Assembly (NCBI RefSeq): GCF_007741495.1
Contig: NZ_CP036262.1
Span: 5,456,001 to 5,520,000, forward strand
DNA: 64,000 nucleotides
Direction of reading: 5' to 3'
Source: Roseimaritima multifibrata
GTDB lineage: Bacteria > Planctomycetota > Planctomycetia > Pirellulales > Pirellulaceae
The notes under the pieces were generated by a model. The model saw only the letters and a program-made list of their open reading frames with translations, made no database searches and was not told the origin of the DNA. This document shows positions 6,162 through 62,616 of this stretch, piece after piece (position 1 is the first letter of the stretch; each line of letters opens with the position of its first letter). Both the position numbers and the translations under genes were made by a program.

Positions 6162-6476
6162 TTATTTTCGGCGAGTTGCCGTTTTCTTGCGAGGAGCAGC
6201 CTTGGAGACGCGTTTTTTAGCGGCGCGTTTCTTGGCGGTCTTCTTAGCAACTTTCTTAGTCGCTGTCCGTTTGACAGCCTTCTTCTTAGCAACTTTCTTC
6301 GTTGCGGTGCGCTTTGCAGCTTTCTTCACAACCTTTTTAACGGCACGCTTTTTAGCGACACGCTTTTTGGCTGCAGTTTTCTTTGCTGCGGTCTTCTTGG
6401 CTGCGGTTCGTTTAACAGCAGTCTTCTTAGCAACTTTTTTGGCTGCAGTTTTTGCAGCACGTTTCTTCTTGGCCAT
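6162..6476 (-). CDS. Histone H1-like lysine/alanine-rich DNA-binding protein
   Basis: 104 residues made almost wholly of Lys, Ala, Arg, Val and Thr in degenerate pentapeptide-like repeats (AAKKT, VAKKR, VKRTA). This resembles the C-terminal tail of eukaryotic H1 and the chlamydial Hc1/Hc2 and bordetellal BpH1 proteins. Such proteins bind DNA through charge and help compact the nucleoid, which is condensed in planctomycetes. There is no folded domain. It is monocistronic, with its own terminator and about 270 bases of upstream space. Low complexity makes orthology uncertain, but the composition is unmistakable. Confidence 0.85.
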   Translation of the reverse strand: MAKKKRAAKTAAKKVAKKTAVKRTAAKKTAAKKTAAKKRVAKKRAVKKVVKKAAKRTATKKVAKKKAVKRTATKKVAKKTAKKRAAKKRVSKAAPRKKTATRRK

Positions 6477-7737: not shown

Positions 7738-10700
7738 TTACCGCGTTTGGTTAGTAGCGCGCCGAAACGATTCGAACAAGTCGCGATAGATTGGAGGCGG
7801 TTGCAATCGATTGCCACTATCTTCAATACCGCGCAAACCATCACTCCGATCACGTCGTTTTAACACGCCACGATTCTCCTTCTGCAACCCGAGACTGCGC
7901 AACGCTTCTTCAAGTTCTTGTTGACTGGATGCATCGGGTTCTGCGGGTAACCGACGCGTCTGTTGCCAACGCTCTTGAAAGGCACGTAAGTCTTCTGCAT
8001 CCCACTGCAATTTCTCTAACAACTCTTGATCGGGCTGGTCTCGGTTCTGTTCCAAATAATCCAAGACCATGTCGGTTGCCTGTTTCGTGTACTCCATGTC
8101 GATGGGATCGGCTTTGGGTGGCGGTGCCACCCCTTCAGGCTCCGTAGGGGACTGAGACGAAGGCGATCGGCCATCCCCGTTCGCAGCATCACTGCCGCTA
8201 GACGAAGAGGACGACTTCGTGTCACCACGCTCCGGTTCGGACGCCTTTGAAGGACTCTCAGAGCCGGTTTCAGCACCAGCTTGCCCTGCTTTTGCAGATG
8301 AATTGGCATTGGAGTCCGCAGGTTCACCCTTGCGGTCCGAATGGTTATTCGAATCGCCTGATTCGCCTTCTTGTTTACCTTCATCACTCCCTTGCTTACC
8401 AGTTTCGCTGCCTTGTTCGCCCGTTTCACTTCCTTGCTTACCCGATTCGCCACCTTGTTCACCCGCTTCACTTCCTTGCTTGCCTGATTCGCCACCTTGT
8501 TCACCCGCTTCACTTCCTTGCTTGCCTGATTCGCCACCTTGTTCGCCTGCTTCACTTCCTTGCTTGCCCGATTCGCCACCTTGTTCGCCTGCTTCACTTC
8601 CTTGCTTGCCCGATTCGCCACCTTGTTCGCCCATTTCACTTCCTTGCTTACCTGATTCGCCACCTTGTTCACCTGCTTCACTTCCTTGCTTGCCCGATTC
8701 GCCACCTTGTTCGCCCATTTCACTTCCTTGCTTGCCTGATTCGCCACCTTGTTCGCCTGCTTCACTTCCTTGCTTACCTGATTCGCCACCTTGTTCACCC
8801 GCTTCACTTCCTTGCTTACCTGATTCGCCACCTTGTTCGCCTGCTTCACTTCCTTGCTTACCTGATTCGCCACCTTGTTCACCCGCTTCACTTCCTTGCT
8901 TACCTGATTCGCCACCTTGTTCGCCTGCTTCACTTCCTTGCTTACCTGATTCGCCACCTTGTTCGCCTGCTTCACTTCCTTGCTTACCTGATTCGCCACC
9001 TTGTTCACCCGCTTCACTTCCTTGCTTGCCCGATTCACCACCTTGGTTGCCTTGGTTATTCATGCCGGAGTCTTGATCGCCAACTCCGTTGGCAGAATCA
9101 CTCTTTCCATTTTCAGCCGCCTCTTTGCGCTGCTTCTCGATGTGCTCTTTGATTCGTTCAAACGCCTGTCCATCGTCCTGTGGTGGTTTCGCTCCGCTAT
9201 CGCTGCTTCCGCCTGAGGATTCACCACTTCCACCTTGTTGTTTTCCCCCGTTGCTTGACGAATCGGCACTTTCGCCTTGCTGACCAGCCCCTCCTTTGGA
9301 GTCACCTGCCTCACCCTGTTCCATAGCGGATTCGCCACCGGGTTCACCGCCTGATTCCATGCCGGGCTCACCACCTGACTCGCTACCAGGCTCACCACCC
9401 GATTCCATACCAGACTCGCCGCCCGACTCGCCGCCTGACTCGCCGCCTGACTCGCCGCCTGACTCGCCGCCTGACTCGCCGCCTGACTCGCCGCCTGACT
9501 CGCCGCCTGACTCGCCGCCTGACTCGCCGCCTGACTCGCCGCCTGACTCGCCGCCTGACTCGCCGCCTGACTCGCCGCCTGACTCGCCGCCTGACTCGCC
9601 GCCTGACTCGCCGCCTGACTCGCCGCCTGACTCGCCGCCTGACTCGCCGCCTGACTCGCCGCCTGACTCGCCGCCTGACTCGCCGCCTGACTCGCCGCCT
9701 GACTCGCCACCTGACTCGCCGCCTGACTCGCCGCCTGACTCGCCGCCTGACTCGCCGCCTGACTCGCCACCTGACTCGCTGCCTGACTCGCCACCAGACT
9801 CGCCACCTTCTTCTTGAGGTTCAACAGCCGGTTTGTCATCGGGCGCGGAGAGACCATCGCCAGACTCTGCATTTGCTTGTTCGTTGGCTGGTGAGATAAT
9901 TCGCAGCACAATTTCATCGCTGCGAGTCTGGTTCGGATTCGGCTTTCCCTCTTGGTTCTGTCGATTGTCTGATGCGATCGCGACGATACGGACTTCATGG
10001 CCCGGACGCAGCTTCCAATCGGAAGGTCGAAAACGCATCAACCCAACTCGCTGAGTCGGATCGCCCTGAGAACTTTGCCACAGGATGGGTTCTGCTAAAC
10101 GATGGATTCCGCGGTCAATCTGCAATCGCAATTGAAGTAAACCAAAATCAGGATCGAGGGCTCGGACTTCAATCAACTGCTGAGCGTTAACGGGCAATTC
10201 CTTCGGCGACTGTTGAGGCAGCACGATAGAAACTTCCGGAGCCAAGTCGGGGTAAACTCGCACAGGGTAGACAACCGGCTGGGGGTTCTCGGTGCCCGTT
10301 TCATCCTGCACGAGCAAGCGATAACCGTCCAAGTCGACCATCCCACGTTTAGGATCCCCCATCCGCAGCCGAAAGGTGACTTGAATTTTTCGCCCATCAT
10401 CTTCGATGACCAACGGCACCGTTCCCGCGGTAGCAGCAACCTTGCCATGAACATCCCGAGGATTGAATTCCAACTGACCTGAAACGACAGGGCGATTCGT
10501 CCGCGCGGTGATGGTAACTTCAGTCCCCTCCAGACCATCGATGGCCGCACTACCTCGGCTGCGCGCTGCCTGTTTCGTATAGGCAGGCGGTTGATAATGA
10601 ACCGATTCGATGTTGACGACAGGAACATCATGCACGGTCACTAAATAGCCCCTGCTGGAGGCGTCGCCCGCGACCACTTTGTATTCGGTTTCACTCACCA

Positions 10701-11526
10701 AGCCGTAGGGTTTCCCCAGCACGGCAGAAAACCGGCTGGAATCGTCAGGATCGCGTTGCATCGGCTCGTGACGCGGCGCAAGATCGTCACTGCCCTTCCA
10801 CACAACCGTTGGCTCGGTTGTGCTACCAAGCTTCGATATGGTTGCCGTAACGCTTAGGGTCTGCCCGGCCAAGACTTCCGTGTCACCTGGAGCTACCGAT
10901 TCGATACGAACACGCGTCGGGGCATCGATTGATGCCATTGGCATTAGCAGTCGACCGGCCGACTGAAAAGTATTCTTCGGCGAAAGAACCGAATAGGCAG
11001 CCAGAACGGCAAGCGTCCCCGCCACCGCAATCCAAAGCCGAAAATCGGTATTCGCTTCGGCGGGCAAAACGTCTCCGTGTCCCTGCAAGCGACCTGCCGC
11101 CCGAGCTCCGATCGAACGAACCACGATACCGCGCAACCCTGGCTGAACACGATCATCACGAAGGGTCACATAACTGGTCAACGCATGTTTTAGTTCAGGC
11201 AGATCGCGTTCGATCGCATAAGCCGCATAGGTGTGATCCACTTGGCTTGAAAACAACGGGCGAACCCGAGTCCAAATCCACCAAGCTGCCGCGGCAAGCG
11301 CCACGCCGGCGAACACCAGACGGCCAACGATCCCTGGAGACCAAATCCATTGATCCATAATCGACCAAGCCAACAGCAGCCCCAAAGCCGACAAGACAAG
11401 GACCAACAGCCCTCGAATCAATTCGCTCCACCAAAGCCCACGCCGCACCTCTTCGATTCGTGCCTGAATCAAATCATCGCTGAGGCGTTTCTTCGTATTT
11501 GGGGAGGAAGCCGAAAGAGTGGCCAT
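7738..11526 (-). CDS. Giant membrane-anchored protein with two Gly/Ser/Glu repeat blocks
   Basis: 1262 residues. The first 90 contain two hydrophobic helices (about 39-57 and 66-86) and a third lies near 167-183. Residues about 200-540 are beta-rich, resembling repeated extracytoplasmic modules. Residues about 572-704 are a pure GGES tetrapeptide array; about 827-1037 are 15 copies of a 14-residue unit (GESGKQGSEAGEQG type). The C-terminal 120 residues are a conserved-looking helical region (YTKQATDMVLDYLEQ, LEEALRSLG). The layout suggests a membrane anchor, a stalk domain, a flexible hydrophilic low-complexity spacer and a terminal domain. I do not recognise a function. Codon order is strongly repetitive, so the gene should be prone to length change. 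Confidence 0.85.
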   Translation of the reverse strand: MATLSASSPNTKKRLSDDLIQARIEEVRRGLWWSELIRGLLVLVLSALGLLLAWSIMDQWIWSPGIVGRLVFAGVALAAAAWWIWTRVRPLFSSQVDHTYAAYAIERDLPELKHALTSYVTLRDDRVQPGLRGIVVRSIGARAAGRLQGHGDVLPAEANTDFRLWIAVAGTLAVLAAYSVLSPKNTFQSAGRLLMPMASIDAPTRVRIESVAPGDTEVLAGQTLSVTATISKLGSTTEPTVVWKGSDDLAPRHEPMQRDPDDSSRFSAVLGKPYGLVSETEYKVVAGDASSRGYLVTVHDVPVVNIESVHYQPPAYTKQAARSRGSAAIDGLEGTEVTITARTNRPVVSGQLEFNPRDVHGKVAATAGTVPLVIEDDGRKIQVTFRLRMGDPKRGMVDLDGYRLLVQDETGTENPQPVVYPVRVYPDLAPEVSIVLPQQSPKELPVNAQQLIEVRALDPDFGLLQLRLQIDRGIHRLAEPILWQSSQGDPTQRVGLMRFRPSDWKLRPGHEVRIVAIASDNRQNQEGKPNPNQTRSDEIVLRIISPANEQANAESGDGLSAPDDKPAVEPQEEGGESGGESGSESGGESGGESGGESGGESGGESGGESGGESGGESGGESGGESGGESGGESGGESGGESGGESGGESGGESGGESGGESGGESGGESGGESGGESGGESGGESGGESGGESGGESGGESGGESGMESGGEPGSESGGEPGMESGGEPGGESAMEQGEAGDSKGGAGQQGESADSSSNGGKQQGGSGESSGGSSDSGAKPPQDDGQAFERIKEHIEKQRKEAAENGKSDSANGVGDQDSGMNNQGNQGGESGKQGSEAGEQGGESGKQGSEAGEQGGESGKQGSEAGEQGGESGKQGSEAGEQGGESGKQGSEAGEQGGESGKQGSEAGEQGGESGKQGSEAGEQGGESGKQGSEMGEQGGESGKQGSEAGEQGGESGKQGSEMGEQGGESGKQGSEAGEQGGESGKQGSEAGEQGGESGKQGSEAGEQGGESGKQGSEAGEQGGESGKQGSETGEQGSETGKQGSDEGKQEGESGDSNNHSDRKGEPADSNANSSAKAGQAGAETGSESPSKASEPERGDTKSSSSSSGSDAANGDGRSPSSQSPTEPEGVAPPPKADPIDMEYTKQATDMVLDYLEQNRDQPDQELLEKLQWDAEDLRAFQERWQQTRRLPAEPDASSQQELEEALRSLGLQKENRGVLKRRDRSDGLRGIEDSGNRLQPPPIYRDLFESFRRATNQTR
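8412..9047 (-). repeat. 42-bp coding tandem repeat, about 15 copies
   Basis: Inside the giant membrane protein. Each 42-base unit encodes a 14-residue unit of the EQGGESGKQGSEAG type. Two copies have Met and one has Thr at the variable Ala position. Third-base differences are scattered among copies. The length is a multiple of three, so gain or loss of units keeps the frame. Confidence 0.92.
9412..9807 (-). repeat. 12-bp coding tandem repeat (GGES), about 33 copies
   Basis: Inside the same gene. A 12-base unit encodes Gly-Gly-Glu-Ser; long runs are identical at the DNA level. The few variants sit at the two ends, the usual picture of recent expansion in the centre. Confidence 0.93.
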
Positions 11527-11815: not shown

Positions 11816-11843
11816 TTGCCGGTCAGCGCAAGCCGACCGGCAA
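11816..11843. repeat. Inverted repeat, 9-bp stem
   Basis: TTGCCGGTC and GACCGGCAA flank a 10-base loop and pair perfectly. There is no T tract on the minus strand, so it is a poor intrinsic terminator for the gene ending at 11990. Confidence 0.6.
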
Positions 11844-11867
11844 ATTCATTATATTCTCTACGCGATT

Positions 11868-11902
11868 GCCGGACGGCTCGCGCCGTTCCGCTAAGAAAGT
11901 AG
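11868..11902. repeat. Solo half-copy of the ~100-bp palindromic repeat
   Basis: GCCGGACGGCTCGCGCCGTT followed by CCGCTAAGAAAGTAG matches the right arm of the repeat units in the arrays at 33717-34091 and 44623-45290. The left arm is absent here. Confidence 0.85.
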
Positions 11903-33716: not shown

Positions 33717-34091
33717 CCGGACAGCTCGCGTTGTACCGATAAGAGAGTGAGCGCGAATCAAAAATTCCAAATTCCTAGCGGAAGGGCGCGAGCCCTCCGG
33801 CCCGGGAACCACTCCGCAAGAAAGGCCGGACGGCTTGCGCCGTTCCGCTATGAGAGTGCTCGCACACCAAAATTTCTTAGCGGCAGGGCGCGAGCCCTCC
33901 GGCCAGAAAACCACTCCGCAAGAAAGGCCGGACGGCTCGCGCCGTTCCGCTAAGAGAGTGATTGCACACCAAAATTTCTTAGCGGAAGGGCGCGAGCCCT
34001 CCGGCCAGAAAACCACTCCGCAAGAAAGGCCGGACGGCTCGCGCCGTTCCGCTAAGAAAGTAGATGCCGGACGGCTTGCGCCGTTCCGCTT
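33717..34091. repeat. Array of the ~100-bp palindromic repeat, about 3.5 units
   Basis: Units 102 bases apart (right arms near 33824, 33926 and 34028), preceded by a degenerate half-copy and ended by a truncated one. Each unit is an inverted repeat: TTAGCGGAAGGGCGCGAGCC plus CTCCGGCC against its near-complement, with about 2 mismatches in 28. It begins 10 bases after the stop of the small gene. Confidence 0.92.
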
Positions 34092-44472: not shown

Positions 44473-45556
44473 CGCGGATTCTCCATCAATCAACTTGAAC
44501 CAGCCTTGCAGACGCCGCCAAGCAGCGGCCCCTCCTGCAGGGGATCATCAGATAGCAACAGAAGCGAATCGACGGCAAGCCCAAACAGGGGGTTTCCGCC
44601 CCCGCAGTGCGGACCAGAACATGGCCGGACGGCTTGCGGCGTTCCGCTAGGAGAGTGATCGTGAATCAAAAATTCCTAGCGGCAGGGCGCGAGCCCTCCG
44701 GCCCGGAAACCACTACGCAGAAAGGCCGGACGGCTCGCGCCGTTCCGCTAAGAGAGTGACTGCAAACCACAATTTCCTAGCGGCAGGGCGCGAGCCCTCC
44801 GGCCCGGAAACCACGCCGCAAAAGGCCGGACGGCTTGCGCCGTTCCGCTAAGAGAGTGATCGCGAACCAAAATTTCTTAGCGGAAGGGCGCGAGCTCTCC
44901 GGACCGGAAACCACTACGCAGAAAGGCCGGACGGCTTGCGCCGTTCCGCTAAGAAGGTGATCGCGAACCACAATTTCCTAGCGGCAGGGCGCGAGCCCTC
45001 CGGCCCGGAAACCACTCCGCAAAAGGCCGGACGGCTTGCGCCGTTCCGCTAAGAAGGTGATCGCGAACCAAAATTTCCTAGCGGCAGGGCGCGAGCCCTC
45101 CGGCCCGGAAACCACGCCGCAAAAGGCCGGACAGCTTGCGCCGTTCCGCTAAGAAGGTGATCGTGAATCACAAATTCCTAGCGGCAGGGCGCGAGCTCTC
45201 CGGCCAGAAAACCACGCCGCAAAAGTCCGGACGGCTTGCGCCGTTCCGCTAAGAAAGTAGATCCCCGACGGTTTGCGCCGTTCCGCTAGGAATGTGATCG
45301 CCACTCGATATGCGCCACACAAACGGTGGAAACGTATGAACCGCCATTCCTGCTGAGCAAAGCGATTACTCCGCTGCGACCTCTCGCTCTCGCTTGCGAA
45401 ATTTGGTTTTTTGAGGAAATATCCATTCCCACACATTGCCTTCACGTGATCCTAAACTCGACTCGTACAATTCCCACCTATCGGCAAGCGTAAAGCTTTC
45501 CACTCTTTTCAGTAACGCAGATTCGATTCAACTCTCTTGAATATCGGAGCGGGCAC
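44473..45556. other. Long intergenic region dominated by a palindromic repeat array
   Basis: About 1.08 kb between the FkbM gene and the pseudopilin gene. Most of it is the array at 44623-45290. The remainder before 45557 should contain the pseudopilin promoter. Short reading frames inside the array are repeat artefacts. Confidence 0.7.
44623..45290. repeat. Array of the ~100-bp palindromic repeat, about 7 units
   Basis: Right arms recur at 44623, 44724, 44824, 44925, 45025, 45125 and 45225, so the period is 100-101 bases, with a degenerate half-copy ending at 45290. Units differ by a few substitutions, chiefly in the central loop and in the spacer. Each unit can fold into a long GC-rich hairpin. 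Confidence 0.94.
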
Positions 45557-62333: not shown

Positions 62334-62559
62334 TTGGGAGACAAGGAGACAAGGAGACAAGGAGACAAGGAGACAAGGAGTTGGGAGTTGGGAGTTGGGA
62401 GTTGGGAGTTGGGAGCTGGGACAAAAAAGCGCACACTCCTTCACTCCTTCACTCCTTCACTCCTTCACTCCTTCACTCCTTCACTCCTTCACTCCTTCAC
62501 TCCGTGTCTCCGTGTCTCCGTGTCTCCGTGTCTCCGTGTCTCCGTGTCTCCGTGTCTCC
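62334..62559. repeat. Cluster of 7-8-bp microsatellites
   Basis: Starting at the base after the DUF58 stop: ACAAGGAG x5 (62341-62380), TTGGGAG x5 (62381-62415, plus one copy before), ACTCCTTC x8 (62435-62498), GTGTCTCC x7 (62504-62559). The plus strand is purine-rich first and pyrimidine-rich second. The first array and the last are complementary at 7 of 8 bases. Confidence 0.95.
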
Positions 62560-62616
62560 CCCACTCCTCATGATTGAACTGGTCGACCGATGGTCTAAAA
62601 TGGGATTTAGGCGAGC

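Follow-up and report, generated by a model that had tools for sequence, protein, structure and literature searches.

We examined a 64,000-nucleotide stretch of the Roseimaritima multifibrata genome (contig NZ_CP036262.1, positions 5,456,001 to 5,520,000; hereafter the window), focusing on one minus-strand gene for a predicted membrane protein that carries two tandem repeat arrays. The original prediction, made from the sequence alone, placed both arrays in a single spacer separating the membrane domain from a conserved C-terminal domain, and read them as a sign of selection for a long hydrophilic spacer. We find that a conserved helix motif divides this spacer into two disordered arms, each containing one of the arrays. 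The gene and its features, following the protein from its N-terminus, are listed below in window coordinates.

7738–11526, minus strand: whole gene; an open frame of 1262 amino acids with an ATG start, and an N-terminal homolog in all 60 relatives searched (same genus, family and order).
10981–11502, minus strand: membrane part, residues 9–182, from AlphaFold helices at 9–61, 66–93 and 162–181 and hydrophobic stretches at about 36–57, 64–85 and 163–182.
9892–10917, minus strand: three predicted immunoglobulin (Ig)-like beta-sandwich domains, residues 204–545 (about 204–300, 303–425 and 428–545), from model strands and fold matches by VIA-align and Foldseek.
9178–9849, minus strand: left disordered arm, residues 560–783 (224 amino acids), containing array 1; from composition and a predicted local distance difference test (pLDDT) score of about 30 in its counterpart in the relative L117.
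9413–9808, minus strand: array 1, 33 copies of the 12-bp unit GGCGGCGAGTCA (GGES), from Tandem Repeats Finder (TRF), reading of the units and a pattern search of the genome.
9127–9177, minus strand: conserved, predicted amphipathic helix motif DDGQAFERIKEHIEKQR, residues 784–800 (17 residues), from a scoring matrix, the L117 model and the helical moment.
8110–9126, minus strand: right disordered arm, residues 801–1139 (339 amino acids), containing array 2; from composition and the L117 model.
8357–9045, minus strand: array 2, about 16 copies of the 42-bp unit GGESGKQGSEAGEQ, from TRF and reading of the units.
7741–8109, minus strand: conserved helical C-terminal domain, residues 1140–1262 (123 residues), from alignment A1, the L117 model and its occurrence in 38 of the 392 phylum genomes scanned.

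To place the gene in its family, 133 loci were examined, in which open reading frames (ORFs) carried the N-terminal part in 115 cases, the C-terminal part in 128 and both in 102. Removal of duplicates, judged by the last 150 residues, left 93 genes with both ends (45 from named contigs and 48 from further genomes, the window gene included), 89 of them closed by stops on both sides; the other 40 loci were cut, frame-broken or duplicate. The scan of named contigs covered the best 80 of 87 relatives.

The helix motif was sought with a leave-one-out scoring matrix against shuffled spacers, and was counted as present when its score lay above the 99% shuffle level. By this measure it occurs in 92 of the 93 genes, with 91 exceeding the maximum of 372 shuffles, and in 88 of the 89 genes closed on both sides. 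In the relatives it follows the pattern H-D-G-E-A-F-E-R-I-x-E-Y-L-E-x-Q, and in an alignment of 36 full-length sequences the columns D726 and E731 within the motif are nearly invariant. The AlphaFold model of a full-length relative, L117, contains a helix at residues 726–745 with 10-residue block pLDDT values of 80 and 86, compared with about 30 in the flanking arms. Across the family the motif is predicted to be amphipathic: its mean helical moment is 0.49 against 0.29 for shuffled sequences, and 90 of 92 genes exceed the shuffle median. In the window protein the motif sits exactly between the two arrays, so that array 1 extends the left arm and array 2 the right arm. The notion of one spacer holding both arrays therefore does not stand. 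We consider this mid-chain helix a likely docking site. A Gly-rich stretch of the GDRSGGG type accompanies it in 27 of the 93 genes, following the helix in all 27, and is absent from the window gene.

The two arms vary widely in length, from 68 to 390 residues on the left and from 151 to 771 on the right, within a total spacer of 284–928 residues (median 519). Their composition is far more constant. Of 92 genes, 91 have a net acidic left arm and 90 a net acidic right arm, bulky hydrophobic residues make up about 2% of the arms, and a single cysteine (in L074) occurs among 48,642 arm residues. A long hydrophilic spacer is kept in all 93 genes with both conserved ends; homologs with the same ends and no spacer, which would have refuted the original prediction, are absent among the 93.

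Both arrays reported earlier are real. TRF describes array 1 with a period of 12, 33.0 copies, a 97% match and a score of 743, as predicted (about 33 GGES units, nearly identical in DNA), and array 2 with a period of 42, 16.4 copies, a 91% match and a score of 1077, where 15 copies had been claimed. The gap between them is 367 bp (9046–9412), not 365. Among consecutive printed units, 26 of 36 12-mers in array 1 are identical to GGCGGCGAGTCA, and 15 of 17 42-mers in array 2 encode GGESGKQGSE[A/M/T]GEQ, with differences that are mostly synonymous and with the last two units degenerate. Array 1 is nearly uniform, whereas the variation in array 2 is mostly synonymous, which points to array 1 as the younger of the two or the more often homogenized. 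To call the arrays unrelated, as had been done, is too strong: the first 12 nucleotides of the array-2 unit agree with the array-1 unit at 10 of 12 positions, both encoding GGES, although the codon differences that were cited are consistent. A 30-base pattern from array 1, searched with up to two mismatches, gave 29 matches in its own genome, all listed places lying inside array 1, and the reversed control gave none there. The host genome is a single contig of 7,216,590 bp, and this lowers the chance that an array was collapsed or invented in assembly. An assembly artifact was considered as the origin of the arrays and is unsupported, given this one 7.2-Mb contig and the arrays in the genomes of relatives; the exact copy number may still be affected.

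Across the family, arrays are a feature of the arms, covering 14.4% of residues in the left arm and 6.5% in the right, as opposed to 1.7% in the motif, 0.2% in the N-terminal part and 0.1% in the C-terminal part. Spacer arrays of any strength occur in 63 of 92 genes and strong ones (TRF score of 150 or more) in 23, so most family members reach long arms without strong arrays. Only the window gene and L034, both of the genus Roseimaritima, have strong arrays in both arms. The congeners differ in their units: L034 has 21/42-bp and 18-bp-based arrays, L035 has 21-bp-based arrays in the left arm, and L036 has just two short ones. All 48 strong rows, and 215 of all 217 spacer rows, have a period divisible by three, as expected if the reading frame is kept. 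Repeats thus turn over between species while arm composition stays constant. This species-specificity is in line with the earlier claim that the two arrays arose independently, though not in one spacer, since they occupy two arms.

The arrays themselves have the appearance of recent slippage that has been tolerated. Tandem arrays are frequent in the 400 kb of the same genome that were sampled as twenty 20-kb pieces; most lie outside long frames, and two long frames carry strong ones. The first (L199:4285-5967) is a 560-residue ORF with long Ala/Pro/Glu-rich repeats and DDIFGAP units, apparently a repeat-bearing envelope or secreted protein. The second (L199:6504-8447, C1 about 5146504-5148447) is a 647-residue DUF4129 membrane protein (PF13559, 3.9e-14) whose GGEQ array has a 12-bp unit in about 27 copies. 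It resembles the window protein in having a 12-bp Gly/Glu-rich array between the hydrophobic stretches of a membrane protein, and differs in its unrelated family, single array and other codon unit; GGE-type 12-bp arrays therefore arise elsewhere in the hydrophilic membrane-protein linkers of this genome. This array in an unrelated membrane protein fits slippage that disordered linkers tolerate, and the arrays speak only partly for selection for length.

These observations bear on an alternative that we regard as about evenly balanced between true and false, namely that the arrays are a mutational by-product of a duplication-prone lineage with tolerant disordered linkers, in which length and repeats are nearly neutral and only harmlessness is selected. 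The abundance of coding and non-coding arrays in the genome sample, the GGEQ array among them, speaks for it, as do the rarity of strong arrays in the family, their restriction in both arms to two congeneric genes, and the other units, or the mere two short arrays of L036, that the closest relatives carry at the same places. Against it stands the long spacer of biased composition, which every one of the 93 genes has and which is nowhere shorter than 284 residues, where pure neutrality would be expected to give some short ones. That objection concerns the arms and not the arrays, so the by-product view is partly compatible with the tether that we propose below. The earlier claim of a long hydrophilic spacer is accordingly supported, the spacer being present in every gene with both ends, and selection of the arrays for length is less so; the argument for selection comes from the family-wide pair of long arms of constant composition and not from the arrays. 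The observation behind the original prediction is real, and its main reading is half right.

At the N-terminal side, an AlphaFold model of residues 1–559 (41 aligned sequences) has a mean pLDDT of 91.7, with beta strands across residues 207–544. Over residues 204–546, VIA-align and Foldseek both match this model to Ig/FN3-type domains, and the aligned ranges of these matches supplied the domain limits; both lists hold generic Ig/FN3 domains, without any function named. The loop at residues 87–161 contains 10 Lys/Arg residues and is read as cytoplasmic, its orientation being inferred. Hydropathy and charge fit a predicted topology in which three helices cross the membrane, the N-terminus and this loop lie inside and the Ig-like domains outside.

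The N-terminal part distantly resembles DUF4175. PF13779 (DUF4175) matches 18 of the 36 aligned relatives at E values up to 1 (best 7.7e-9), whereas the window protein matches 0 Pfam families at E values up to 0.1 and again up to 1; a PF13779 profile search of its own genome found three other places, the window gene not among them. Because half of the aligned N-terminal domains touch PF13779 but the window member does not, we call the window protein DUF4175-like, with doubtful membership in DUF4175 itself.

The C-terminal domain is well conserved, with a mean column identity of 46% among the 40 members of alignment A1, and forms helices at residues 973–1089 of the L117 model. The nearest named match to the window domain is in Roseimaritima sediminicola (59% identity). 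The genomes that carry it include 12 of the same order or nearer (its own included) and 26 of 28 of the same class, Planctomycetia; among the matches listed from the 392 phylum genomes scanned, none lies outside this class. The Pfam descriptions examined contained neither this class-restricted domain nor the mid-arm helix motif. SAM_SMF/RuvA_C matches of the C-terminal domain were not used for any assignment; likewise left unused were weak calmodulin- and immunoglobulin-type sequence matches in the PDB, with best E values of 0.1 (A1) and 0.14 (A2).

The same architecture extends to another family of the class. From one family among the 26 same-class matches, 18 genes were fetched, and all 18 have an N-terminal part, a spacer of 467–882 residues and a C-terminal part. 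A DDxEALKKILExLKKE-like segment lies 115–215 residues into the spacer, and in 17 of the 18 genes it beats that gene's own 20 shuffles.

In a first pass, the C-terminal domain was detectable in 48 of 53 loci; four of the other five ran off their contigs, and the fifth, L061, was matched by a later profile. Of 26 ORFs with only the C-terminus, 19 are cut short by the 5' end of the contig (L098-L101, L105-L107, L111, L119 and others), draft contigs stopping in the spacer. Short-read assemblies typically break at repeats. As drafts of relatives frequently break off within the spacer, databases probably under-count this gene or show it split.

Taken together, we consider it reasonably probable that the protein is an inner-membrane-anchored periplasmic tether or scaffold in which two docking modules are carried on entropic arms. 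The three N-terminal transmembrane helices would anchor it in the inner membrane, with the three Ig-like domains projecting into the periplasm. From these domains would extend the acidic, hydrophobic-poor disordered chain, split by the amphipathic helix into two arms and ending in the small helical domain. As entropic linkers, the arms would need to be long and soluble, while their exact sequence and length would hardly matter, for which reason replication slippage could add or remove in-frame repeats. If the mid-chain helix and the C-terminal domain recognize partners, one anchored molecule could thereby hold two targets at an adjustable distance. The predicted topology would fit a reach on the periplasmic side. 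By our own estimate, intended for orientation, the 563-residue disordered chain would span roughly 14 nm (root mean square), with a contour length of about 200 nm, and the Ig stalk would add some 12 nm, so that the molecule could cross a periplasm. More doubtful, in our view, is a wider version of this proposal, a Planctomycetia-wide trans-envelope tether with three conserved islands (Ig stalk, mid helix and C-terminal domain), in which slippage would tune the two reaches independently by species.

Several points weigh against the tether proposal. The membrane orientation, periplasmic location, tether role and docking of partners are what we infer from the predicted layout. The predicted template modeling (pTM) scores of 0.62 for the N-terminal model and 0.40 for the full-length model give no confidence in the relative placement of the domains. 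One gene of the 93, L063, has no scoring motif. Both arms of L055 carry a net basic charge, and L062 has a right arm that is close to neutral. The other family also has an exception: L227 does not reach the maximum of its own shuffles, though a similar segment is its best match. For the C-terminal domain, profile matches are weak and mixed (SAM_SMF in 10 of 40 members, best 7.1e-5), and the best match to a solved structure has an E value of 0.1. Finally, the gene neighborhood gives no clear pathway, and we draw no function from it.

Repeat slippage in a disordered linker is the ordinary part of these results; the new part is the anatomy, and the added value lies in a conserved helix dividing the spacer and in how widely it occurs within the class. 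The envelopes of planctomycetes are unusual, and most envelope proteins in these bacteria lack an assignment. The 17-residue helix and the C-terminal domain, kept class-wide amid mostly unalignable arms, offer two handles for a partner search, and the range of arm lengths forms a natural series for testing whether linker length is important in the cell envelope.

Known systems share parts of this layout. TolA/TonB transducers combine an inner-membrane anchor, a long periplasmic linker and a small C-terminal domain. The window protein, by prediction only, likewise has an anchor and a long linker ahead of its C-terminal domain, and differs in its three transmembrane helices and three Ig-like domains. 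DUF4175 proteins have N-terminal transmembrane helices and a large extracytoplasmic part, and TIGR02302 proteins also bear Gln/Gly-rich low-complexity stretches. The window protein shares with both an N-terminal membrane region followed by a predicted extracytoplasmic part, and differs in having no PF13779 match and in its class-restricted C-terminal domain and mid-arm helix. A paralog in the same genome (L086:6512-12166) is homologous at its N-terminus (E 1.3e-13, query residues 19–531). With 1884 residues it lacks the GSE/Q-rich arms, the rest of the protein being charged and, by eye, probably coiled-coil; unlike the window gene, it sits in a gene run, which we take to comprise MoxR, DUF58 and VWA-type genes. 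The literature search found no paper that we recognized as describing the window gene's family.

By analogy with DUF4175 and TIGR02302 proteins, the window protein could be a cell-division or envelope-biogenesis factor, which we consider unlikely. The leads are the paralog's place in a gene run that we read as MoxR-DUF58-VWA and two published accounts: PMC7481262 reports AdvA of Acinetobacter, annotated as DUF4175, as a critical division protein, and a table in PMC9275681, a study of division and envelope biosynthesis, lists RSP_0730 (TIGR02302) among CenR binding sites. Transfer of function is nevertheless weak for a protein without a Pfam match, and the DUF4175 region of AdvA is described as accompanied by two predicted transmembrane helices, where the window protein has Ig domains and long arms. 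More improbable still is an adhesin or matrix protein that faces outward and uses its Gly/Ser/Glu arms as a cell-surface stalk: Ig-like folds resemble adhesin modules, among many others, but the NCBIfam matches to ClfB (6.6e-7; 27.7 bits against a cut-off of 999) and SdrC (9e-4; 17.4 against 1700) cover low-complexity stretches (557–822 and 573–764), the folded Ig domains adjoin membrane helices, and the translation ends in ...FRRATNQTR, with no LPXTG-type end. The ClfB/SdrC assignment was rejected, as these matches reflect composition and fall far under the cut-offs.

The surroundings of the gene vary across the family. In 19 of 53 loci, the next gene in the same direction encodes a FAD-oxidoreductase (PF00890, PF02910), presumably nadB, and an ABC-2-type permease gene occurs in 19 of 53, mostly at position +3. 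The window gene instead has an M50-peptidase gene downstream, an arrangement common to 4 of the 53 loci.

Other repeats occur in the window. A repetitive extragenic palindromic (REP)-like element around TTAGCGGAACGGCGCGAGCCGTCCGGC forms tandem arrays at 33772–34061 and 44623–45263, and a copy lies upstream of the gene at about 11825–11890; L185, L192, L197, L199 and L204 also carry arrays of this element, and L198 has one that is similar. At 62337–62568, tandem arrays with 7- and 8-bp units (GGAGACAA, GGAGTTG, CACTCCTT, CTCCGTGT) directly follow one another, with similar arrays in L190, L197 and L201 of the same genome. At 6162–6476, on the minus strand, a 104-residue Lys/Ala-rich ORF with AAKK-type repeats appears, by eye, to be histone-H1-like.

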